64,000 nt of DNA from positions 19,135-83,134 of IMG/VR virus record IMGVR_UViG_3300033153_006411. One strand, given 5' to 3'. A program made the translations under genes and the position numbers. This stretch comes from a virus. Below, piece by piece: positions 5,129 through 60,870 of this stretch. How positions within the stretch are numbered: the stretch's first letter is position 1; each line of letters begins with the position of its first letter. A model generated the notes under the pieces. It saw only the letters and a program-made list of their open reading frames with translations, did not search any database and was not told where the DNA came from.

Positions 5129-5902
5129 TTAGTCAGATCGTTGGGTTTTCATTAAACCAAATGTTTCTAGGGTTCGGGCTCCAATATCAAGTTCCCACCA
5201 TTTGAAACCGTTTCTATACCGATTTGGGTACTTATGATGGTTGTTGTGCCAACCTTCACCCGGAGCGAGCATGTTCACCCACCAGTTATTGGTACTAGAG
5301 TCCGCTGGTCTGAGGTCATAAGTTCGGTATCCAAACATATGACTGATAGCGTTGACGTGGCTATATGCATGAAATGCAAAAACCGCAGGTAGACAATAAC
5401 CAAATACCATCAATAATGGATCGATCAAGAATAACAATCCCGCCCATGCGAACAGTATCTTGAAGTAGTGTTGTTGGCAGAACCTAACATGAGGGTTCTT
5501 CATTAAATCCCGAACCATTCCCTTTGGAATTTCAAATGGGTTCCATAGATGGAAGTACGCTCGCACACCACCAAGGATTTTTGGCGAGTGTGGGTCTTTC
5601 TCGGTATCACAATACGCGTGATGTAAACGATGGGTACCAGCCCACCCCATTGGCGTTCCGCCAGTAGCCAAACACCCACTGTAGATCATCAGAACCTCAA
5701 ACCACTTGTATGTGGTGAAACTCTTGTGGGCGAGATAGCGATGAAAACCAACACTGATACCGATTGATCCGATAACACAGTACCAGAATGCATATCCAGC
5801 AGCCCACATCCACCATGACCCATATATGAATGCGGGAATTAATGCAAGGTGATTCAGTATGTGAAGAATTCGTAGTTTGTTTGAAAAGTTTAGCTCAGGC
5901 AT
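5129..5902 (-). CDS. Membrane fatty-acid (acyl-CoA type) desaturase
   Basis: 257 residues. It carries the three histidine boxes of the di-iron membrane desaturases: HRYLAH (54-59), HRLHH (91-95) and HNNHH (219-223), with hydrophobic segments between them. Known enzymes put a double bond into acyl chains in the inner membrane. It overlaps the upstream oxygenase-like gene by 13 nt, so they form one minus-strand operon. Together with the phage acyl carrier protein (20815) and PLA2-like protein (62868) it suggests host-lipid remodelling, which is inference. Confidence 0.9.
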   Translation of the reverse strand: MPELNFSNKLRILHILNHLALIPAFIYGSWWMWAAGYAFWYCVIGSIGISVGFHRYLAHKSFTTYKWFEVLMIYSGCLATGGTPMGWAGTHRLHHAYCDTEKDPHSPKILGGVRAYFHLWNPFEIPKGMVRDLMKNPHVRFCQQHYFKILFAWAGLLFLIDPLLMVFGYCLPAVFAFHAYSHVNAISHMFGYRTYDLRPADSSTNNWWVNMLAPGEGWHNNHHKYPNRYRNGFKWWELDIGARTLETFGLMKTQRSD

Positions 5903-6674: not shown

Positions 6675-7979
6675 ATGACCAATATCGACTTACAAGTAGC
6701 ATTAATGGAATCCGGTCGCATGAATCTCATGCATTTACCGTCGGGAGCCATTTCGTGGTTGTGGGATCGTCCGACAAAACAAATTGATGCTGCCGAGTCC
6801 CTAGCGGTCGCAGCCAATGCACACGGCAACCCCGTGGTGGATGCTTCATTGTTAAAAGCTGACCAGAATGTGTTACTGATAAAATGCGAAGGAGGTGAGT
6901 CTTTTCGAATATACCCTGATGGCGGCTTTTCCCACAATGATTCACCCATGGATATCGGGGGTTGTTCGTCTGTGCTTCAAGGTATGCAGCAGGATGAGTG
7001 CCCAATGGACGACAACGGACACCAAATGCCTATGGATATGCCTATGGATATGCCTATGGATATGCCTATGGATATGCCTATGGATATGCCTATGGATATG
7101 CCTATGGTGATGGGTGAGTCCGACGAATTTAAGCCATTCGAATTAACAACATACCGGACGGATGGTGATGTATGGATAACCGGATACAATGATCTGAAGG
7201 CTGCTATATCTTTCGGCAAAGGAGAAATGGGTGATGGCGAAACCGTGGGATTTACAGTAACCGCCCCAACCAAAAATGCCTTTTCAAAACCAGAAATGTA
7301 CCATCAGGAAGGCGAGGTGGCCGAGGATGCCGGTAATGATGAGCACATGGACGCAGAGGCTCCTGAGAGCGGCGTAGCGACGCCCATTGGTATGACCAAC
7401 CTAGCAGGCGAACCAACCATGGACGAGGCTGACGGGGCTGGTGGTGGCTTCTCAATGGGTTCTGGCTCTGGTGCACCATACGTTGGTGACATGGCAATGG
7501 ATGCTGACCCAGAACTTGAAAATCTGGTAACATCTCGTGGACTTGGTGAAGCCAGTGTTCATATGTTTCGTAACGAGAGTGACGAAGCCCTGAGCGCCCT
7601 CGCTGAAGCATTAGGTATGGATGAGTATGACCCATCGGACGATATGGTAGATGTTGAGAATATCAATCTGGAAGTTTATGACGAATCTACCGATTCATAT
7701 CAGGAATTTCCTGTCTCCGTTGAGTGGAACGTAGAACCAACTGAATACGAGGGTCAATATCTATTCTACCAAGGTAGTGCGGACGTGGAAAGTATCAACC
7801 TAGTTAACCCAATTCGGGTCAACGGGAAGGTATACCGGCAGATGGATGATGAATTGGCGGCTCTTATTTTACAAACGTATAACACGAAAGAGACATCGTT
7901 ATCGGATTACATTGCTGACCAATATGCTCACAAAATCGACATACCTCAGCACAAGTACCCAGACTCATCACGTAATTAA
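6675..7979 (+). CDS. Acidic protein with MPMD tandem repeats
   Basis: 434 residues, very rich in Asp, Glu, Met and Gly. Residues near 118-145 are a tetrapeptide repeat, MPMD six times then MPMV, from a 12-bp DNA repeat. A low-complexity acidic and Gly/Ser-rich middle follows, and the C-terminal third looks folded. It has a strong GAGGAG site and a GTAAATA element upstream, as for structural genes here. Its function is unknown; a virion or scaffold role is only a guess. It ends convergently with the dCMP deaminase gene, overlapping it by 4 nt. Confidence 0.7.
   Translation: MTNIDLQVALMESGRMNLMHLPSGAISWLWDRPTKQIDAAESLAVAANAHGNPVVDASLLKADQNVLLIKCEGGESFRIYPDGGFSHNDSPMDIGGCSSVLQGMQQDECPMDDNGHQMPMDMPMDMPMDMPMDMPMDMPMDMPMVMGESDEFKPFELTTYRTDGDVWITGYNDLKAAISFGKGEMGDGETVGFTVTAPTKNAFSKPEMYHQEGEVAEDAGNDEHMDAEAPESGVATPIGMTNLAGEPTMDEADGAGGGFSMGSGSGAPYVGDMAMDADPELENLVTSRGLGEASVHMFRNESDEALSALAEALGMDEYDPSDDMVDVENINLEVYDESTDSYQEFPVSVEWNVEPTEYEGQYLFYQGSADVESINLVNPIRVNGKVYRQMDDELAALILQTYNTKETSLSDYIADQYAHKIDIPQHKYPDSSRN
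7026..7109 (+). repeat. 12-bp in-frame tandem repeat (x7)
   Basis: Seven copies of ATGCCTATGGAT, the last ending GTG instead of GAT. Copies are essentially identical at DNA level, which points to recent expansion or contraction by slippage. It encodes the MPMD repeat. Confidence 0.95.
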
Positions 7980-13529: not shown

Positions 13530-14398
13530 AGTCCTGCGTTGTAATGTGCAAGGATTCGGGCATCGGGTAGCATGTAGTTGTAGATAGCTATGTTATCGTA
13601 CTGGCCATCCGTCCGCGAAAAACTATCAAACGATGTATAACCAACTCTGAAAAATGTTTGGTTACCACCCCCATTATAACCAGTGGCGTAACCCACAGTA
13701 TCATATTCTACCCCATCGATCCAGAATGTAATCGTTTTCGCTAATCCGTTCCGTGTGGTAACAATATGATGAACGGTGTTGAGTGATAACTGCGCCGTCG
13801 CCGATGTCGTGACTATTGGCGAGCGAACATTGATTTCGTGATAGGCTCCGAGATGACCGGTGGAATTCACCGTTAAACTCCATAAGGCATTGTATTGAGC
13901 CTGTGGTAGGTTCGTCTGTGTACCACAGTGCACTATATGGTTCCGATCATTCAATGCACCACTTCCGCCACTAAAAGTATCCAACTTAACCCAACATTCA
14001 ATGCTCATGTAGCTTATTAACTGCAAGAGATTTTGACCAGTCTGAATCAGGTGCCCTCCATTGTAGGTGGTGGGTGGGACGATATCTGCATTTGCTCCGG
14101 GAAAATCATATACTCCTCCCCCATCATTGACCAATCCGGGGAGGCCGTTAGGACCAGCACCGGGAAGAAGAGGTGGTGAAGGATTACCAGAAGTGAGCCG
14201 TGCATCAAATCCTGTACTCCGCTCGTGACCGGTCACTTGAGCTATGAATGCATTAGGTCCAGAATCAGTCGTAAATGTACCGCCAATGCCCCACGCATCG
14301 TTCAATTCGTAAAAGACGACAGGATTATCAGCAAGCACCTCGTCAGAAGCCGAGATCGTAGGCTGATTGACCATATGCGCTGTGATGCCCGCGTGCAT
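13526..14398 (-). CDS. LamG/concanavalin-like virion protein
   Basis: About 290 residues. The C-terminal two thirds fit a LamG-like jelly-roll: SIECWVKLD, then TVHHIVTTRNG, ITFWIDGVEY, and YDNIAIYN at the end. These folds bind sugars and are frequent in tail-fibre tips and adhesins. The start overlaps the stop of the tail-fibre gene (TAATG), so it is translated with it. It is likely part of the receptor-binding apparatus. Confidence 0.75.
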   Translation of the reverse strand: MHAGITAHMVNQPTISASDEVLADNPVVFYELNDAWGIGGTFTTDSGPNAFIAQVTGHERSTGFDARLTSGNPSPPLLPGAGPNGLPGLVNDGGGVYDFPGANADIVPPTTYNGGHLIQTGQNLLQLISYMSIECWVKLDTFSGGSGALNDRNHIVHCGTQTNLPQAQYNALWSLTVNSTGHLGAYHEINVRSPIVTTSATAQLSLNTVHHIVTTRNGLAKTITFWIDGVEYDTVGYATGYNGGGNQTFFRVGYTSFDSFSRTDGQYDNIAIYNYMLPDARILAHYNAGL

Positions 14399-16302
14399 TA
14401 TACAGGCACCAAGTTGCCGAACAATGTCCAAGTAGTGGTGGTCACTTTAAGAGCCGTTGCTACTGCATATTGCCCGTTCAATACTAGAGTTAAGTTTGCA
14501 TTAACATTTAGCGTATCGGTGTCTATTGCTACCGTTGTTGCTCCCGCTCCCAGTTGTTGAAAATGGATTTCTGTTCCTATAGGATATGCAACAGAAGCAT
14601 TGGATGGAAGTGTCACTGTGTTTGCACCTGCATTGTCCATTGTAACCATTTTACCAGAGTGTCCCAATGTAAACGCACCGGGTCCATATGACACTCCTGT
14701 TTGTATTTCGAATTCAAGTTTTGCGTCTATACCACCATTCACAACTAGCGTAGACCCATCCCATGTGAAGTTCGGGTCACCTTCGAGTGTTCCGTCACCG
14801 GTCCATACACCGATCTGATTATTAACAGGGGTGCCTACCTTTATTACATCACCAGCACCCGCTACAGTCTGCCATGTTGCAGTGGTTGCACTAGTGGCTA
14901 CTAGAGTCTGTCCAATTGTTGGGGGTATTGCGGCGTCTACATTTACGTCTGCACCAGTAGTGGCTAGGTCGGAAGCTGCACCGACATCCTGCCATGTTGC
15001 AGTGGTTGCACTAGTGGCTATTAGAAACTGTCCGATTGTTGGGGGTGCGGCGAGGTCTATGTTTACGTCTGCACCACTCGTGGCTAGGTCGGAAGCCGCA
15101 GCGCCACTAGCTGTGAGATCGATACCATTCCAAGTAATAGTACCGCCATCGTTATATAATTTGTCTGTTGTAACAGTTGGGGCTGTTTGGGAAGGAATAA
15201 CAATAGCACCGGAAGAACCACCACCAGCACCAGCGCCCGGGGTTAGTGTCACGTTACCACCAGCCGCTATTCCGAGTGCATCACCAGCAGTCACGTTAAC
15301 GTCACCACCGACACCACTCAATTGCGGTAGACCGCCGAGGATGTTAACGTCACCACCACCACCAGTACCAGTACCACCAGCACCACCGATAACAGACGCA
15401 GCACCACCAGCACCGTTGGAAGTATCACCTTCACCACCGGTTATGGAGATCGCACCACCAGTATTTGCGGCACCAACGCCAGCACCGGCAGTCAATGAAA
15501 TTGGGGCACCGTCGGCGGCAACAGAAGCACCGGGGTTGATTATTACTTCACCACCAATACCTGTTGTGGAGTCACCACCAGTAATCGCAACTGCACCACC
15601 AGCGGCGGCAGTACCAACACCACCTGTAATGGATACGCTACCACCAACATTACCAGTACCAGAATCACCAGCACCGATGGACACAAGTCCACCCAGTCCG
15701 ATTGCAGCATCACCAGCAGCAAGAACAACACTACCACCAATACCAGCAGCAGCACCACCAGCACCAGCAGTCAAGCCGATATCACCGCCGTTACCATTGG
15801 TACCACCATCACCGGTTACGAAGTTCATAGTACCACCAGCGGCGGCTATGTTGCCGTCACCAGTTGTGACCGTGAACCCGACACCAGTATTACCGGCATT
15901 GCCAGTAGGGGTTTCGATATCGAATCCCGCAGTGGACCAATTGAGAACAGAAGCGGGCACAACATAGGTGCCAGAGTTATCACCCATGGTGAATGCGATA
16001 ATGTTATCATCGACACCCGTGAAGTTTTCGACATAAATTTGGGTGTTGAGATCGGCGTCTTCTAGTTTGGACAGTACGACACCACTAACACCAGCTAGGA
16101 TAGCCCAACCACCACTGTATATTTCGAAGTCACCAAAGTCAGTGTTGTACCGCATCATGCCATTGGTTGGTGAGGCAGGGCGTTGAGCCGTGCCACCAAC
16201 TGGGATGGTCATCGAGGTAGTCCCGGGCAATTCAACGAGAGTTTCACCCGAGGCTGCAATAGTAGGCCAGAGTGTATCTCTCCAGTGGTTTTCTTGTGTC
16301 AT
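14398..16302 (-). CDS. Glycine-rich tail-fibre protein (paralogue B)
   Basis: 634 residues. An N-terminal domain (residues 1-125) is nearly shared with the next fibre gene. It is followed by a long Gly/Ala-rich repetitive shaft with units such as GGAISITGG and GGDVNILGG, then a distal domain containing two near-identical ~40-residue blocks (ATWQDVGAASDLAT / ATWQTVAGAGDVIK). The end resembles structural tip modules. It is repetitive at DNA level, so the many open frames on the plus strand here are shadows. Transcription probably starts at the GTAAATA element at 16327. Confidence 0.85.
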   Translation of the reverse strand: MTQENHWRDTLWPTIAASGETLVELPGTTSMTIPVGGTAQRPASPTNGMMRYNTDFGDFEIYSGGWAILAGVSGVVLSKLEDADLNTQIYVENFTGVDDNIIAFTMGDNSGTYVVPASVLNWSTAGFDIETPTGNAGNTGVGFTVTTGDGNIAAAGGTMNFVTGDGGTNGNGGDIGLTAGAGGAAAGIGGSVVLAAGDAAIGLGGLVSIGAGDSGTGNVGGSVSITGGVGTAAAGGAVAITGGDSTTGIGGEVIINPGASVAADGAPISLTAGAGVGAANTGGAISITGGEGDTSNGAGGAASVIGGAGGTGTGGGGDVNILGGLPQLSGVGGDVNVTAGDALGIAAGGNVTLTPGAGAGGGSSGAIVIPSQTAPTVTTDKLYNDGGTITWNGIDLTASGAAASDLATSGADVNIDLAAPPTIGQFLIATSATTATWQDVGAASDLATTGADVNVDAAIPPTIGQTLVATSATTATWQTVAGAGDVIKVGTPVNNQIGVWTGDGTLEGDPNFTWDGSTLVVNGGIDAKLEFEIQTGVSYGPGAFTLGHSGKMVTMDNAGANTVTLPSNASVAYPIGTEIHFQQLGAGATTVAIDTDTLNVNANLTLVLNGQYAVATALKVTTTTWTLFGNLVPV

Positions 16303-16326
16303 GATTCATTCCTGTCAATGCTGTAG

Positions 16327-16333
16327 TATTTAC
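16327..16333 (-). promoter_or_regulatory. GTAAATA putative late promoter element
   Basis: GTAAATA on the minus strand, 24 nt before the tail-fibre start at 16302. The leader that follows (with TTGACAGGAA just before the ATG) closely matches the leader of the paralogous fibre gene at 18396, so the promoter region was duplicated with the gene. Confidence 0.6.
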
Positions 16334-16356
16334 TCATACTTAACACGTTAGCAAGA

Positions 16357-18396
16357 TTAGGCATTTGCCAGAATACCAAAACAAACACGAGCCAATGTAG
16401 AACCCGTATCAGGGGTGGTGTATGTCATTATGAGTTCATCACCTGCGCTAAGGACTAGTGGACCGAGAGCCGCCACGACACCAGTAAGTGATCCGATGGC
16501 GAATGTTATCGTTCCTATTGACGTACCGGGAGCAGTACCACCGGGTGATGCAACATGGAGATCGAATGTCGCCGGAGAAACCGAGGCCGTTGTCAGGGCA
16601 TCACAATAAGCAAAATGTCCACCGGTTCCCAAAGTAATAGTTCGTGGAATCGCCCAACGATGCACGTTTAGACCGGGAGTGGCAGCTACGAGCGAACTTC
16701 CCAAATATGCATTCAGATCATATGGGTGTAGTGCGGCAGCAATTTCGGTATCAACATAATTCATGGTGGCAGCGTCTTGCGCTATTACGGGATCAAGTAC
16801 GTTACCGATTGCAAAGGCACCAGCGTTGATAGCACCAGTCATGGTACCACCAGCCAGTGCTAGGAATGGACCAATAGCAGCAATTCCATCATCAACGTAT
16901 TTCTTGTTCGGCATATCATTATTAGCCAGAACCAGAGCTTCGTAAGATGCCGTTGATGTGGACAATGTACCATCGTCCTCAACCGTGAATCGTGTTGCAC
17001 CACCAGTAGCCATGTTGATAGCACCATGAGGGCTACCTGTACCAGCCGTCAGAGTGATATCGCCAGCAGGAACACCAGTAGCATTGGCAGTAGATATATT
17101 GAAGGCACCAGAGCCACCAGCACCAGAACCAGTGATCGCACTGATATCACCACCAAATTCTCCACCGCCACCACCGCCGTCACCTGCGATAATAGCCAAA
17201 TCACCACCATCACCAGACCCACTACCAGCACCGGATGTAATGGTTAAGGCACCACCAACATCACCATTACCACCAGCACCAGCATTCAAAAGCAATGCAC
17301 CACCTACGCCGGATGTTGTGCCACCGGCACCAGCGGTTACATCGATAGCACCACCAGCGGCTATGCCAAGTGAATCACCAGCAGTAATGTTAACATCACC
17401 ACCAACACCACTCAGTTGCGGCACGCCACCGAGGATGTTAACATCACCACCATCACCAGTACCAGTACCACCAGCACCACCACTAATAGAGACAGTACCA
17501 CCAGTACCAGCCGAAGCATCACCTTCACCACCGGTTACGGAAATTGCACCACCAGAGTTTGCCGCACCAACACCAGCACCCGCGACTAAGCTAATAGGAG
17601 CACCATCCGCAGCAACCGATGCCCCGGTAATAATATTGATCTCGCCGCCAATCCCTGATGTGGAAGCACCACCAATTAAGTTTATAGCCCCACCAGTATT
17701 TGTGGCACCAAGACCAGCCGTAATCGTTACATCACTACCGGGGTTGCCACCGCCAGAATCACCAGCCGAGATAAAAACAGGTCCACCAATACCAGCGGTA
17801 CCATTACCAGCAGCAAACAGTAGACTACCACCGTTACCGAAGGAAGCACCACCTGCACCAGCGATTATATTAATAGGACCACCAGTAGTGTTAGTTCCGC
17901 CACCACCAGTTGTGATATTGATAGCACCACCAGCGAAGGCTGCATCACCTGCACCAGTTGTTACCGTGAATCCGACACCAGCGTTCGAGGAAGCACCGGA
18001 GGGGGTTGTGATTCCGAATCCACTCGTTGACCAGTTAAGTACCGAAGCAGGCATGGTATAGGTGCCAGAATTATCACCCATTGTGAATGCGATAATGTTA
18101 TCATCGACACCCGTGAAATTTTCAACGTAGATTTCGGTGTTGAGGTCGCCGTCTTCTAGTTTGGACAGGGTAACACCAGCAAGAGTAGCCAAGATAGCCC
18201 ATACACCATTATACGCTTCAAAGTCGCCGAGGTCGGTGTTGAACCGCATCATGCCGTTGGCTGGTGAAGCAGGGCGTTCAGACGTGTCGCCGACTGGGAT
18301 AAGTGTAGCAGTGGTTCCGGGCAAATCTACGAGGGTTTCACCCGACGCGTAAATGGTAGGCCAGAGTGTATCTTTCCAATGGTCTTGTTGTGTCAT
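16357..18396 (-). CDS. Glycine-rich tail-fibre protein (paralogue A)
   Basis: 679 residues. The N-terminal ~125 residues (MTQQDHWKDTLWPTI...) match paralogue B closely, as does the shaft segment around GGDVNILGGVPQLSGVGG. The C-terminal ~250 residues differ: a linker with KKYVDDGIAAIGP and a beta-rich tip ending VCFGILANA. Conserved base and shaft with unlike tips is the usual pattern of receptor-binding diversification. Confidence 0.85.
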   Translation of the reverse strand: MTQQDHWKDTLWPTIYASGETLVDLPGTTATLIPVGDTSERPASPANGMMRFNTDLGDFEAYNGVWAILATLAGVTLSKLEDGDLNTEIYVENFTGVDDNIIAFTMGDNSGTYTMPASVLNWSTSGFGITTPSGASSNAGVGFTVTTGAGDAAFAGGAINITTGGGGTNTTGGPINIIAGAGGASFGNGGSLLFAAGNGTAGIGGPVFISAGDSGGGNPGSDVTITAGLGATNTGGAINLIGGASTSGIGGEINIITGASVAADGAPISLVAGAGVGAANSGGAISVTGGEGDASAGTGGTVSISGGAGGTGTGDGGDVNILGGVPQLSGVGGDVNITAGDSLGIAAGGAIDVTAGAGGTTSGVGGALLLNAGAGGNGDVGGALTITSGAGSGSGDGGDLAIIAGDGGGGGGEFGGDISAITGSGAGGSGAFNISTANATGVPAGDITLTAGTGSPHGAINMATGGATRFTVEDDGTLSTSTASYEALVLANNDMPNKKYVDDGIAAIGPFLALAGGTMTGAINAGAFAIGNVLDPVIAQDAATMNYVDTEIAAALHPYDLNAYLGSSLVAATPGLNVHRWAIPRTITLGTGGHFAYCDALTTASVSPATFDLHVASPGGTAPGTSIGTITFAIGSLTGVVAALGPLVLSAGDELIMTYTTPDTGSTLARVCFGILANA

Positions 18397-18470: not shown

Positions 18471-18801
18471 TACAGTTGCTTGAGCGAACCTTGGACGCTC
18501 TGCGGACGCGGGTTCGAATCCCGCCACCTCCACCACTATGGGGGTGCACCGGTTTCGACGTGGTGATGAAAGACAAGTAGTGAGACTGTCGGGTAAGATA
18601 TCCCCGAAAAGATTCAATTAAACTATCAGCAAACGATAGCTTCTATGATGGAGAGTACGCTCTCGCTGCGTAAGCAGGAGGCAGATTCTCAAGCGGTCTA
18701 AACAACCGACACATCCGAGGTGTAATGAGCCTTGTTACCAAAGTACTAGAGAAGGGCAGTTGGCGTTGACCGTGAATACGGACCACTGCCCTTCTCGTTT
18801 T
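18471..18801 (+). ncRNA. ssrA: tmRNA, circularly permuted (two-piece type)
   Basis: The acceptor piece comes first. The T arm (stem GCGGG/CCCGC, 18508-18524) and acceptor strand CACCTCC + ACCA (18525-18535) closely match the E. coli tmRNA 3' end. After only CTAT comes the 5' acceptor strand GGGGGTG (18540-18546) and the signature GGTTTCGACG. All seven acceptor pairs form with one G-U. P2 pairs form across the pieces: CAGT/ACTG and CTTG/CAAG. The tag frame 18629-18673 reads ANDSFYDGEYALAA-stop, a normal proteolysis tag. No T arm follows the tag, so this is not a standard linear gene. It rescues stalled ribosomes. Confidence 0.93.
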
Positions 18802-35761: not shown

Positions 35762-37678
35762 ATGAAACTTCTGGAATTCTTTAGAACCATTCGGGAGAAT
35801 GACTCTAACGGTACCGGAAAGTTCGTTGGAGCAAGACTAACCCGAGAATCAGAGCGCGACATCACCCGATGGATGCGCGATAACGGGTTACGTAAGAAAG
35901 AACCACGCGCCCGCATGCACATCACCGTCGTTGGTGATAAGGAACATGACTTCGATTGGAATCCCGCTACATTCAAACCACCACTCGAAATCGACCCCGC
36001 TTCGTACAAGATAGAAAAATTCGATCACGGTTCCATCGTGCTGTCATTCTCCGTCCCTGAACTTGAGAAGCGACACGAACAGGCAGTCGAGGATTATGCC
36101 ATCCAGTGGGATTTCCCTACGTATCAGCCACACATCACATTAAGCTACGACCCAACCGACCTGAATGATGTTGAGCGACTGCTGACACCAACGTTCCCGA
36201 TGTATGTTTCGCATGAGTACGAACAACCATGGTCGTTTACCGAATCAGACACAGCGTCAGAGCGTCGCCGTAGCGCACGACTGGACGAAGCCTTCCTAGC
36301 TGAACGAAACCTGATGAATGCTCCACTGGCCAAAAAGTGGGCTGGTCATGCTGCCGAGACTCTGTTTGGTTCTGAAGTTGGTGCTGCATTGTTACCGATG
36401 GGTCTCGCTGATCCCGCACTGAAGTGGGCACATCGTGCACTCGCACGATACTTCGTTAATGATATGCCCGCATCACGGCTCCTCTCCTTTACTTCGGGGG
36501 ATGATAACGGAACGTGGCGACCACCGGCAACCGACTTCAATCAACAAGGAATCGAAGGTCATGGTGAAATTATTACACCACAAGATGCGGCTTATGGCAT
36601 CACCAGTGGACACCAAGGTCTCCGATCCATTACGGTTCCTCCTTGGGTTCCGGCTACATTGGAACGGGGTGATGAATTATATTTCTTGGATCAGCGGGGA
36701 GTAAACCATCTTGTTAATAGCAGCATGTTCGGTGCCGTCAAAGACTGGTTCCGTTACTTGGCGAACAACCACCCAGAAAAATTAAAGACCGGAGCCCTGA
36801 ACCGATTGAGTTGGGAAGAGGCTGTGGAATCTGCTGTTGAGTGGCATCAGGCTATGCGAGCGGCAGAAACTAGCGACGACGAAGAAAATGAAAATCACCG
36901 CGTGATGTACATCGATTACGGCAATGGTATTGCGTGGTGGAAACTAATTGGCGAAACCTGCCTCACCCGTGAAGGTAAACTGATGGGTCATTGTGTTGCC
37001 GATTACGTGCACGACGTGGAAAGTGGTCATTCAGTTATTCTGTCATTGCGAGATGAGAAAAATAATCCCCATGTAACAGTAGAACTTAATGATATTGCCT
37101 ATACCAAAGATGCTCCCAAGGCTGGTTATATCATCAACCAAGTGAAGGGAAAGGAAAACAAACCACCAGTTGAGAAGTACTGGAAATATGTTGACGCACT
37201 GATAAAGAAACTCGATGCTGATGGGCTTGAACTTTCCGCCAGTGGCGAAGGTCCATATGACTTATCCGAATGTGAAATCGAAATAATTGGTCCCCTGTTG
37301 GTCAGAATATCACCTCCGCTTCATAACATAACATCACAATTCCATCTAATTCAGCAACATGCTGATGGAAGTCAAAAAGATGTAATGGAAGGAAGTAAAG
37401 GAACTGATTTGTTTGTAGTATTTCATACATTAAGAACAACATATAATATCTTTCCAACCGGCGAAGCCGAACAATACTTAAAGTGGTTGCTACTCAGGGA
37501 CGGTGAATGGGAAATTGATACGGAAACCATCCCAGACGTTAGAGGTGAATATGATTTTGTACCTACCCATATAAATATAAAGGTACCCAAGATCGAATAT
37601 GAAGTCCTTGCTGGTAATCCAAAGGATTTCAAATACGACCTCAAACACGAAATCGCGGTGCATCTAAATGAGGAGTAA
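35762..37678 (+). CDS. Acb1-like 2H phosphoesterase fused to PcfJ-like domain
   Basis: 638 residues. The N-terminal ~150 residues have the two HxT motifs of 2H phosphoesterases: MHITVV (His53/Thr55) and PHITLSY (His124/Thr126), with a DFDWNP and SVPELEKRH segment between them as in phage anti-CBASS Acb1 proteins, which cleave cyclic di- and trinucleotide signals. A linker region follows. Near 400-480, GKLMGHCVADYVHDVESGHS..SLRD and QVKGKENKPP resemble PcfJ-like proteins. The remaining C-terminal part is unassigned. If active, the N-domain would blunt CBASS defence. Confidence 0.7.
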   Translation: MKLLEFFRTIRENDSNGTGKFVGARLTRESERDITRWMRDNGLRKKEPRARMHITVVGDKEHDFDWNPATFKPPLEIDPASYKIEKFDHGSIVLSFSVPELEKRHEQAVEDYAIQWDFPTYQPHITLSYDPTDLNDVERLLTPTFPMYVSHEYEQPWSFTESDTASERRRSARLDEAFLAERNLMNAPLAKKWAGHAAETLFGSEVGAALLPMGLADPALKWAHRALARYFVNDMPASRLLSFTSGDDNGTWRPPATDFNQQGIEGHGEIITPQDAAYGITSGHQGLRSITVPPWVPATLERGDELYFLDQRGVNHLVNSSMFGAVKDWFRYLANNHPEKLKTGALNRLSWEEAVESAVEWHQAMRAAETSDDEENENHRVMYIDYGNGIAWWKLIGETCLTREGKLMGHCVADYVHDVESGHSVILSLRDEKNNPHVTVELNDIAYTKDAPKAGYIINQVKGKENKPPVEKYWKYVDALIKKLDADGLELSASGEGPYDLSECEIEIIGPLLVRISPPLHNITSQFHLIQQHADGSQKDVMEGSKGTDLFVVFHTLRTTYNIFPTGEAEQYLKWLLLRDGEWEIDTETIPDVRGEYDFVPTHINIKVPKIEYEVLAGNPKDFKYDLKHEIAVHLNEE

Positions 37679-42744: not shown

Positions 42745-42773
42745 TTGACAGTTATTTTTAAGTGTGATACGTT
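42745..42773 (+). promoter_or_regulatory. Promoter of two-loop RNA array
   Basis: TTGACA (42745-42750), 17-nt spacer, TACGTT (42768-42773). The predicted start near 42780 is about 10 nt before the first array unit. A separate ATTCACT/AGTGAAT inverted repeat lies just upstream (42706-42723). Confidence 0.7.
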
Positions 42774-42789
42774 TAAGCCTATGAATCAT

Positions 42790-43222
42790 GATGTGGGTGG
42801 AAGACCAGCCCGATACCGTCGGTTGACCTTTCAATTGCAGTCACCGCCCGCATCAACTTATTACGGTAGCTTGGAAGACCGATGGCGCACAGTCGTTTAG
42901 ACCCTTCGATCAATGTCACCAAGCCGCCAATTTATCAGAGGTAGTTGGAAGACCTGAAAATTTTTGTCGCGTGACCCTCTCGTGAATGTCACCAACTACC
43001 TCAACTTATTACGATGCGTGCGAAAGACCTCGTAAACCAAGTTGTATGACCAATGGCAAATAGTCATCGCTTGCATCAATTTATTACGGTAGCTCGGAAG
43101 ACCAGTGTTGTAGTGTCGAATGACCTCTTCAAGATCGTCACCGAGCTATCAACTTATTAAGGTAGTTGGAAGACCCTATTGGTGTAGTCAAATGACCGGA
43201 TACGTTTAGTCGCCGACTACCT
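42790..43222 (+). ncRNA. Array A: six tandem two-loop RNA units
   Basis: Units begin at 42790, 42865, 42938, 43013, 43088 and 43160, each 62-65 nt, separated by linkers close to AAYTTATTN. Each folds as an outer stem of 9-11 pairs, AAGACC-N11-GTC, a 3-4 nt joint, (T/A)GACC-N11-GTC(A/G), then the returning stem. All twelve loops are exactly 11 nt and differ from each other. Stems vary in sequence but stay paired, for example GATGTGGGTGG/CCGCCCGCATC and GAGGTAGTTGG/CCAACTACCTC. G-U pairs form on the plus strand. I know no described RNA family with this plan. Confidence 0.87.
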
Positions 43223-43299
43223 TTACCAAATCGGCACGTGCTGATAAGCCGGTGGACTAATCCACCATCATATTGTTCATTGGGAACAGGAGTATGAAG

Positions 43300-43899
43300 A
43301 TGGAAAACAATACAATCACGACCGTCAATGATCTCATCCGCATCGCGGATGATAATCATCCCACAGACACCAATGCCGCTGTAGCTGCTGTCATCAAAGC
43401 GATGAAGAAACACAAGCAAAAAGATGACATGCAGGAGTTGCTTATCTCCGCAGGAATCAAGTTGCTTCTGAACGGCATTCGTTCCGAGAACAAATTCAAA
43501 CCCTCACCTGTTGACGGGGTCACCACATTCGAGAGCCATAAAAACAAGTCCGACACCAAAGGCCACAGCACCATCCGCCGTGCCACTCTTAAAACCACAG
43601 AACAGCGTGAAGGTACACGTAATGACATCATCGAGACCATACTCGATGAGGTTTATGGCTCCAACGGATACCGCATGAGCATCGGAAATGCAACCAAGCC
43701 GGTACTCCGCCACTGGGCTAAAATCGAAGGCAAGCAGGCGATTGGTCATACCCGCAACTATGATTTGTTCACTGCCATCGCAGATAGACTGCCCGATGAC
43801 ACCACCAAGGTTGTTGAGTCACTGGACGCTGACGACGTACTGTCTATCAAGTGTAAGACTCATGCAGTCGCCAAGGGTGAAACTCATGCAGCCGCGTAG
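43300..43899 (+). CDS. Hypothetical protein inside the RNA-array locus
   Basis: About 199 residues. AGGAG lies 7 nt before the ATG at 43300; ATG 43294 is too close to it. The N-terminal third is helical, a basic linker follows (KNKSDTKGHSTIRRATLK) and the C-terminal part has IIETILDEVYGSNGYRM and TRNYDLFTAIADRLPDD. I recognise no family and see no RuvC-like DEDD residues. It overlaps the next gene by 14 nt, so the two are expressed together and lie between the two hairpin arrays. Confidence 0.75.
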   Translation: MENNTITTVNDLIRIADDNHPTDTNAAVAAVIKAMKKHKQKDDMQELLISAGIKLLLNGIRSENKFKPSPVDGVTTFESHKNKSDTKGHSTIRRATLKTTEQREGTRNDIIETILDEVYGSNGYRMSIGNATKPVLRHWAKIEGKQAIGHTRNYDLFTAIADRLPDDTTKVVESLDADDVLSIKCKTHAVAKGETHAAA

Positions 43900-44683
43900 C
43901 CAAACGGTGGAGACGCTTAAGAAGATGTGTCACTTTCGACGTGTCCATCTTCGACAGCGCAACGCTCTTGTCCTTTGTATTCAAGGCTTGATACGTTCAG
44001 AACTGGGCTTTCGATCCATCGGTCCAAATGATGAAACCGCCACGGAAAAGAAAGCACGGGAAAAGGTGAACAAGGAAGCCAAGACTCGTGGTGATAGAAT
44101 TATTTCATCATTGAATGGTAAGAAGCTCGCCAAACCACTAGTCGATATCGACCAGAGCATTTATGAGTATATGCTCATCAACTGCAAAGGAATACTCGAT
44201 GGTATCGATATCATGAATTCTGACCTGAAGTCTAAGGACAAGGCCATCGAGAAGAAAGCCAAAGAGTTGCCAGAGTGTGAATGGTGGACTAGCCATAAGG
44301 GTCTGTCAGCTAAAGGTCTTGGTTTGCTAACAGGTGACGCTGGTGATATCGCCCGCTTCGACAAGGAGTCGCAACTATGGAAGCGCATGGGTATGGCAGT
44401 TATCGATGGTAAGCGTCAACGACGTGTGGCTGGCAATGCTGCGAAGGCAATCGAGCATGGATACAACTCCGACAATCGCGCCACCATGTTCACCATCGTG
44501 TCCAGTCTCAACATGGAACGCAACAAGGAATGCTACGCTGACCATCCGTGGTTCAACCTAGCTCGTGATTACAAGGAACGTAAACTGGCTGAAGGTGATA
44601 GACCATGCATTGCCGAAGCACGCGCCAACCGTAGAATGGGAAAGCGAATACTCCGTGATCTCTACTTGCAGGTACATGCATGA
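43886..44683 (+). CDS. IS110-type Transposase_20-like protein
   Basis: About 265 residues from the ATG at 43886, preceded by AAGGGTGA. After a helical, coiled segment (near 90-130), GLSAKGLGLLTGDAGDIARF then ESQLWKRMGM follows the Transposase_20 pattern of IS110 enzymes (helix-hairpin-helix glycines, GD...RF, QL....G). A C-terminal region NRATMF...HPWF...YKERK..GDRP...RRMGKRILRDLY matches the order seen at IS110 C-termini. The IS110 N-terminal RuvC-like DEDD domain is absent and I cannot place the catalytic Ser. IS110 recombinases use a two-loop bridge RNA; flanking arrays make a guide role attractive but unproven. Confidence 0.65.
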   Translation: MQPRSQTVETLKKMCHFRRVHLRQRNALVLCIQGLIRSELGFRSIGPNDETATEKKAREKVNKEAKTRGDRIISSLNGKKLAKPLVDIDQSIYEYMLINCKGILDGIDIMNSDLKSKDKAIEKKAKELPECEWWTSHKGLSAKGLGLLTGDAGDIARFDKESQLWKRMGMAVIDGKRQRRVAGNAAKAIEHGYNSDNRATMFTIVSSLNMERNKECYADHPWFNLARDYKERKLAEGDRPCIAEARANRRMGKRILRDLYLQVHA

Positions 44684-44690
44684 AGTAACC

Positions 44691-44973
44691 TGATGCGAGA
44701 GGAAGACCTATCTCGACTAGTCGTATGACCGTCCAGCCGCCGTCACCTCTCGCGTCAATTTATTCCGGTAGCACGGAAGACCAATCGATAAATGTCGAAT
44801 GACCTTGTGAACTTTGTCGCCGAGCTACCAATTTACCCGATGACTTGGAAGACCCGTAGAGCATAGTCGAATGACCACAGTTCGCCAGTCCCAAGTCATC
44901 AACTTATTTCGGTAGCTCGAAAGACCTTATGAGGCGAGTCAAATGACCCATACTGAGCAGTCATCGAGCTACC
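44691..44973 (+). ncRNA. Array B: four tandem two-loop RNA units
   Basis: Units begin at 44691, 44767, 44839 and 44911 with the same AAGACC-N11-GTC / TGACC-N11-GTC core and the same linkers as array A. All eight loops are 11 nt. Outer stems are again compensated, such as GCGAGAGG/CCTCTCGC, GATGACTTGG/CCAAGTCATC and GGTAGCTCGA/TCGAGCTACC. It starts 8 nt after the Transposase_20-like stop, so it is probably the 3' part of that transcript. The last unit ends 4 nt before a convergent gene. Confidence 0.87.
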
Positions 44974-60500: not shown

Positions 60501-60870
60501 GTGCAGGCGTCCAGACTATCGCTCGACCCATCCCCTTTAGGTAAGTTTGGGAGAGAGGAAGTTCGGGACACCACAGTACAGGCTAGTGGAGAAATTCCAC
60601 CCGACATAATGTCGAGGACAAGTGAGATAGAGACAGACAGCCGATGGCCTTCGGGCACAGGCGATAGCTGGAAAGAGTGGGGTAAGAGCCCACAACGTGG
60701 CATGGCGACATGCGCGGAAGCAAACTCTAGCCGGTGCAACCCCAGACAGTTCTTATGACTCGGTACGACGAGGGACAGGTAGGGGGCAAAGATCGTCATG
60801 GGAACATGGCGGCAAGACGAATGATAGTCCTAGACAGAATCCCGGCTATCGGATGCCGTAAAGCACTTTT
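60501..60870 (+). ncRNA. rnpB: RNase P RNA (bacterial A type)
   Basis: The universal regions appear in order: GAGGAAGTTCGGGACACCACAG (P4 and CR I region, 60555-60576), AGACAGACAGCCGATGGCC, TGGAAAGAGTGGGGTAAGAG with its paired CCCAC, GCAAACTCTAGCCGGTGCAA, and AGACAGAATCCCGGCTATCGG (CR V, ending 60852). P1 forms by GGCGTCC (60506-12) with GGATGCC (60851-57), and outer GTGC/GCAC precedes a T-run. It would mature tRNA and tmRNA 5' ends with host RnpA. No phage RnpA gene is seen here. Confidence 0.94.

Follow-up and report, generated by a model that had tools for sequence, protein, structure and literature searches.

A phage locus best explained as a stem-loop TIGR-TasA system with a linked partner gene

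The locus and its setting

The window discussed here is a stretch of 64,000 nucleotides, positions 19135-83134 of an 83,134-base IMG/VR virus record (IMGVR_UViG_3300033153_006411). Ligase, dCMP deaminase and phage ATPase families support the assignment of this record to a phage, and a search of 50,697 phage records found no near match to it. Ten similar units lie on the plus strand in two blocks, six at 42789-43223 and four at 44692-44973, with tasA between the blocks, and two tRNA genes adjoin the array/tasA locus. An earlier note, made from the letters of the DNA alone, had described the first block (array A, 42790-43222) as six units with constant sequence blocks, which is what we find, and had spoken of ten units in all, a number that the second block makes up. 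The features of the locus are as follows.

42746..42774 (approximate), plus strand: possible array A promoter, TTGACA, 17 nt, TACGTT, picked out by eye
42789..42855, plus strand: unit 1, guides AGCCCGATACC / TTTCAATTGCA
42865..42928, plus strand: unit 2, guides GATGGCGCACA / CTTCGATCAAT
42938..43002, plus strand: unit 3, guides TGAAAATTTTT / CTCTCGTGAAT
43013..43077, plus strand: unit 4, guides TCGTAAACCAA / AATGGCAAATA, box D' = GTT
43088..43150, plus strand: unit 5, guides AGTGTTGTAGT / TCTTCAAGATC
43159..43223, plus strand: unit 6, guides CTATTGGTGTA / GGATACGTTTA
43294..43899, plus strand: partner gene, 201 aa, AGGAG shortly 5' of its ATG; precedes tasA
43886..44683, plus strand: tasA, 265-aa Nop-domain protein without nuclease domain, ATG at 43886, stop at 44683
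44692..44756, plus strand: unit 7, guides TATCTCGACTA / GTCCAGCCGCC
44767..44829, plus strand: unit 8, guides AATCGATAAAT / TTGTGAACTTT
44839..44900, plus strand: unit 9, guides CGTAGAGCATA / ACAGTTCGCCA
44911..44973, plus strand: unit 10, guides TTATGAGGCGA / CATACTGAGCA

The possible promoter scores under the threshold of a consensus scan, and scanning the locus for promoters and terminators returned nothing convincing.

Several features elsewhere in the window deserve mention in their own right. A bacterial class A RNase P RNA is present in full length at 60503-60863 on the plus strand (157.8 bits); such an RNA in a virus record is unusual for phages. A permuted tmRNA (Rfam RF04321, 101 bits) lies at 18472-18673 (plus strand), and a 638-aa protein encoded at 35762-37678 (plus strand) has an N-terminal Acb1 (anti-CBASS) domain (1.2e-20) and a PcfJ-like C-terminal part (1e-8), apparently as a fusion. 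On the minus strand, 14398-18396 encodes two glycine-rich repeat proteins of 634 and 679 aa, which have near-identical starts (MTQxxHWxDTLWPTI) followed by differing repeats and tails and resemble duplicated tail or fibre genes.

Layout and folding of the array units

Each unit runs from an outer arm through AAGACC, 11 free nucleotides, GTC, 4-5 nt, GACC, another 11 free nucleotides and GTC to the second outer arm, the constant blocks being AAGACC-N11-GTC-RNNT-GACC-N11-GTC. The boxes GACC and GUC are present at both spacers in all units, with a CC-to-G spacing of 12. Unit 2 departs from this pattern with GTCGTTTAGACC, which is one nucleotide longer and has AGACC replacing TGACC, and unit 4 has the sole GTT in place of GTC. 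The segments between GACC and GTC/GTT are 11 nt long in 20/20 cases, and their mean identity across different units is 25% (maximum 41%), which equals chance, so the fixed length and lack of common sequence reported in the earlier note are borne out. Position 1 of the segments is free, and position 11 is never G (0/20). The outer arms of units 3 and 6, and of units 5 and 10, are 90-100% identical, and the segments that they enclose are unrelated. The edge positions are thus variable stems, and the alternating constant edge and loop repeats of a dual-repeat array are absent. No Rfam family matched the units at the gathering threshold.

The outer stems vary yet stay paired, as the same note had claimed, and the covariation behind this is strong. 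In the ten-unit alignment 10 pairs are changed on both sides, compared with 5.9 in shuffles, and 27 cells show two-sided change (8.8 in shuffles), with a covariation score of 0.468 against 0.205; none of 500 shuffles matched the observed cell count or score. Pairing of the outer stem is 94%, and sliding the partner by 1-3 columns reduces this to 24-42%. Covariation, together with the linkage to tasA, rules out chance repeats.

Every unit folds better than its own shuffles (z -2.0 to -5.8). In the minimum-energy folds the 5' GAC is paired with the last GUC in 10/10 units, which places the guides inside one closed hairpin, and in most of them the middle GUC pairs with the middle GAC around an apex of 4-5 nt. 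In these folding models each unit is one long hairpin, with the apex GUC-N4/5-GAC and an internal loop that has one segment on either side. The two hairpin loops per unit implied by the earlier note therefore give way to the two sides of a single internal loop. Covariation is unable to choose between a one-hairpin and a two-hairpin fold because GAC and GUC are invariant; the one-hairpin fold is favoured because of the energies and the relatives described below, whose boxes consist of CC(A) and (Y)G only and are too short for separate hairpins, and on these grounds the two-hairpin fold was rejected.

The tasA product and the identity of the locus

The 265-aa protein matches the NCBIfam model NF052498 (TIGR_Tas_endo) with an E-value of 2.5e-13 and 50.5 bits, short of the curated cut-off of 100 bits for this equivalog, so that it is homologous without being filed as an equivalog. 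Because the score is under the NCBIfam cut-off, the protein is regarded as a distant member; the same model was matched by 18/18 aligned members of the group. As a single sequence the protein matches the TasR chain of PDB 9mty at 2.7e-6, and a profile to which 17 relatives were added improves this to 9.3e-14 and also detects TasH, at 1.8e-5. An AlphaFold model, from whose alignment one row from a phage database record was left out, is all-helical and Nop-like (mean pLDDT 79, pTM 0.74). When this model was compared with the PDB by Foldseek, TasR and TasH were the best matches, followed by IS621, with box C/D Nop5 matched weakly. No nuclease domain was matched in the protein sequence and none is present in the model. 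The protein has a Nop domain and lacks a nuclease domain, and is therefore a TasA.

Section 9 of PMC12045711 describes stem-loop arrays with TasA in which two spacers of 8-12 nt lie between box C/D motifs, with palindromic variable flanks and, according to small-RNA data, processing in the linkers. The linker cutting that the earlier note proposed for the window units agrees with these data from another stem-loop array. Its reading of the segments as guides or recognition elements also gains from the neighbouring gene, which encodes a Tas/Nop guide-RNA protein, and from a layout that is that of the published TIGR stem-loop arrays. We consider it almost certain that the locus is a member of TIGR-Tas of the stem-loop TasA type.

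The repeats of TasR systems start with UG and end with CCA around 9-nt spacers (PMC12045711), which puts the CC of box C and the G of box D 12 apart. This is the CC-to-G spacing in the window (CC-N11-G) and in its relatives.

Relatives and guide turnover

Rhizobium phage RHph_X2_25 (MW960032) carries a TasA that is 31% identical to that of the window, a homologous partner and a stem-loop array, in a locus whose genes are annotated merely as hypothetical proteins. A search with an alignment of the window and RHph_X2_25 TasA sequences led to 17 viral loci and a locus in Rhizobium esperanzae, two pairs of loci being near-duplicates (L015/L016 and L026/L028). The relatives were recovered only with this two-sequence query: scans of IMG/VR with single TasA, partner or DNA ligase proteins gave no close relatives. 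A TasA search of plasmid records found none, and the one IMG/VR match to the array motif (L009), a single unit lacking both a stem and tas, was set aside as chance.

Near the tas genes the template CC-N11-G-N4-CC-N11-G with paired arms occurs 143 times in the sense orientation, twice in antisense and never in shuffled sequence. Of 310 segments in the relatives, 253 have A at position 1 and 296 have C or T at position 11, giving the pattern CCA-N9-YG. Judged by sequence, the guides may be longer in the window than in the relatives, since position 1 is free there and position 11 excludes only G.

The earlier note had named loop sequences conserved among relatives, or freely varying loop lengths, as evidence against its reading; in the relatives stems, boxes and segment length are kept and the segment sequence is not. 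Two pairs of related loci illustrate this. L024 and L025 are 89% identical in their tas cores, 89% in their unit stems and 97% in their boxes, but their 9-nt guide cores are 27% identical, which equals chance. Between L012 and L013 the corresponding values are 91%, 97% and 98%, with 46% for the 9-nt cores. In both pairs guides have been swapped wholesale, with exact 9-nt borders, and the hairpins and boxes kept. One unit of the L012/L013 pair has retained guide B and changed guide A, so replacing one guide does not require replacing the other. Among the spacer cores, 326/330 are distinct. Guides are thus replaced in the relatives while the hairpins are kept.

In L015, L018 and L023 several guide units lie inside an ORF that runs into tasA and, if translated there, would yield repeated peptides such as AHPVPGGQ..AAGKPIGRA. 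In L041, at 6951-7050, two stem-loop units appear to fall within the tas reading frame.

A partner gene linked to tasA

The stop of the partner gene and the start of tasA overlap by 14 nt (ATGCAGCCGCGTAG). An HMM built from the relatives' genes upstream of tas, with the window held out, ranks the ORF at 43294-43899 first among the 717 ORFs of the record (E 7.3e-7; the next reaches 0.76). A homologue of the partner is present in 19/19 tas loci, upstream in 18 and downstream in L027. Scans started from the partner, using two sub-alignments as the full alignment is too divergent, returned 14 loci with tas adjacent in 14/14, four of them in records new to the survey. A set of 299 genomes from the R. 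esperanzae genome's family contains each of the two genes six times, confined to the same five genomes, and 6/6 partner copies are adjacent to tasA.

The partner has no match in PHROG, PADLOC or the PDB (by sequence or fold) and isolated weak matches, none convincing, in Pfam; a convincing match to a ParB-like family was found in none of the four. In Faure et al. (PMC12045711) a ParB-like partner accompanies TasA in part of the operons, and single proteins are described apart from that. The 201-aa partner is absent from the main text of that paper, and priority beyond that text is not certain. Its consistent position beside tasA suggests that the partner is probably a working component of a TasA complex or pathway. 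Going further, we are evenly divided over whether stem-loop TIGR-TasA systems are two-protein systems in which the partner is dedicated and obligate, with the window representing a divergent branch whose guides are longer and whose C/D clamps have 3 bp. If that is true, the partner could be, for example, an effector that gives a nuclease-less TasA its action, or a factor that swaps guides within preserved hairpins.

The partner, found together with stem-loop tasA whichever of the two served as the query, and the guide-swapped pairs of related phages provide two handles on these systems. Both the partner gene and guide turnover deserve bench work, and both are bench-testable because culturable carriers exist (RHph_X2_25 and the Rhizobium esperanzae strain).

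Proposed mechanism, targets and alternative explanations

Taken as a whole, the locus is very probably best explained as a phage-borne TIGR-TasA system of the stem-loop type. Its array blocks would be transcribed and, on the pattern reported by Faure et al. 2025, cut in their AU-rich linkers to RNAs of about 65 nt. Each RNA would form one hairpin: above the outer stem, boxes C and D would pair as a lower GAC:GUC clamp, followed by two facing 11-nt guides and then by the upper clamp, GUC-N4/5-GAC, made by boxes D' and C'. TasA, as a dimer, could hold the RNA at both clamps and present double-stranded DNA with guides A and B, each of which would pair with a different strand, as has been shown for TasR and TasH and would apply to TasA by extension. 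The complex would then most likely bind and bend DNA, so that another mobile element or a host gene is blocked from being transcribed or replicated. Binding and bending are preferred over cutting because there is no nuclease domain, and DNA binding without cutting is the likely mode of action.

With the guides on opposite strands, and with TasR cuts reported to leave a 3' overhang, a target should read guide A, a gap of 0-2 nt and the reverse complement of guide B. Guide matches within the phage's own 83-kb record, a possibility raised in the earlier note, did not rise above those of shuffled guide pairings. Nor did a target above chance emerge when the search was widened to 882 kb made up of related phages and the own record, to 50,697 phage records (BLAST) and, with unit 5 as query, to IMG/VR; the guides of one relative likewise had no such target in the 299 R. 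esperanzae family genomes. A 17/18 match of unit 5 at window position 5457 has the wrong orientation, is at chance level and was rejected. The absence of a target is weak evidence because these searches covered little sequence space and several were exact or near-exact only.

It is improbable that the guides act on RNA in the manner of box C/D snoRNAs, in modification or antisense regulation, rather than on DNA. A Nop domain and a C/D-like layout are common to archaeal box C/D RNPs, whose Nop5 was weakly matched, and a TasA without nuclease would suit such a role; the fold and sequence of TasA are nevertheless much nearer to the DNA-acting TasR and TasH, TasR is reported to be without action on RNA, and a non-exhaustive look recognised no fibrillarin or L7Ae homologue near the locus. 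Recombination of DNA under RNA guidance by an IS110/IS621 relative, as with bridge RNAs, is highly improbable: the weak NCBIfam IS110 match (7.9e-7) and the appearance of IS621 in the fold search speak for it, but the IS110-type N-terminal catalytic (DEDD/RuvC-fold) domain is absent from the 265-aa protein, and tandem arrays with many guide pairs differ from one bridge RNA. Equally doubtful are structural or regulatory RNA repeats (e.g., decoys or packaging elements) with segments that are free because unconstrained, a reading that the adjoining tRNA genes and the lack of targets in the own record, related phages and 50,697 phage records would suit, but against which stand the fixed segment length (20/20), the tasA linkage and a turnover in relatives limited to 9-nt cores while stems and boxes stay, unlike neutral drift.

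Comparison with known systems

The earlier note knew of no named RNA family with this design; the design is that of the TIGR stem-loop arrays of Faure et al. 2025. Beyond this naming, the window and its relatives contribute the partner linkage, guide turnover, and 11 free positions as against the relatives' CCA-N9-YG.

Like IS110/IS621, the locus combines a Nop-like RNA-binding fold with an RNA carrying paired guides, but it has neither the transposase domain nor the single bridge RNA of IS110/IS621. It shares the Nop-domain fold, paired spacers and the CC-to-G spacing of 12 with the dual-repeat TIGR-TasR and TasH systems (PDB 9mty, 9vzx). Unlike TasR and TasH, however, its TasA has no RuvC or HNH nuclease, and its units are stem-loops of about 65 nt, whereas theirs are dual-repeat units of 36 nt. 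The TIGR-TasA/TasParB operons (Faure et al. 2025) likewise join tasA to a second gene, but that partner is ParB-like and occurs with dual-repeat arrays, whereas the window partner belongs to no recognised family and occurs with stem-loop arrays.

The closest likeness is to the stem-loop TIGR-TasA system of a Peromyscus gut contig (PMC12045711), which also has a nuclease-less TasA, tandem stem-loop units and several array blocks. As in the stem-loop TasA systems of that paper, the window units have two spacers within 8-12 nt and box C/D flanks, and variable palindromic flanks replace the edge repeats. The window departs from the Peromyscus system in its GUC/GACC boxes, 3-bp clamps and 11 free positions, and from RHph_X2_25, with its CCA-N9-YG units and 4-nt apex, in the same boxes. 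Its operon includes a conserved partner gene, of which the main text of Faure et al. gives no description, and its clamps, its apex length and its freer segment positions 1 and 11 all fall inside the variation reported there.
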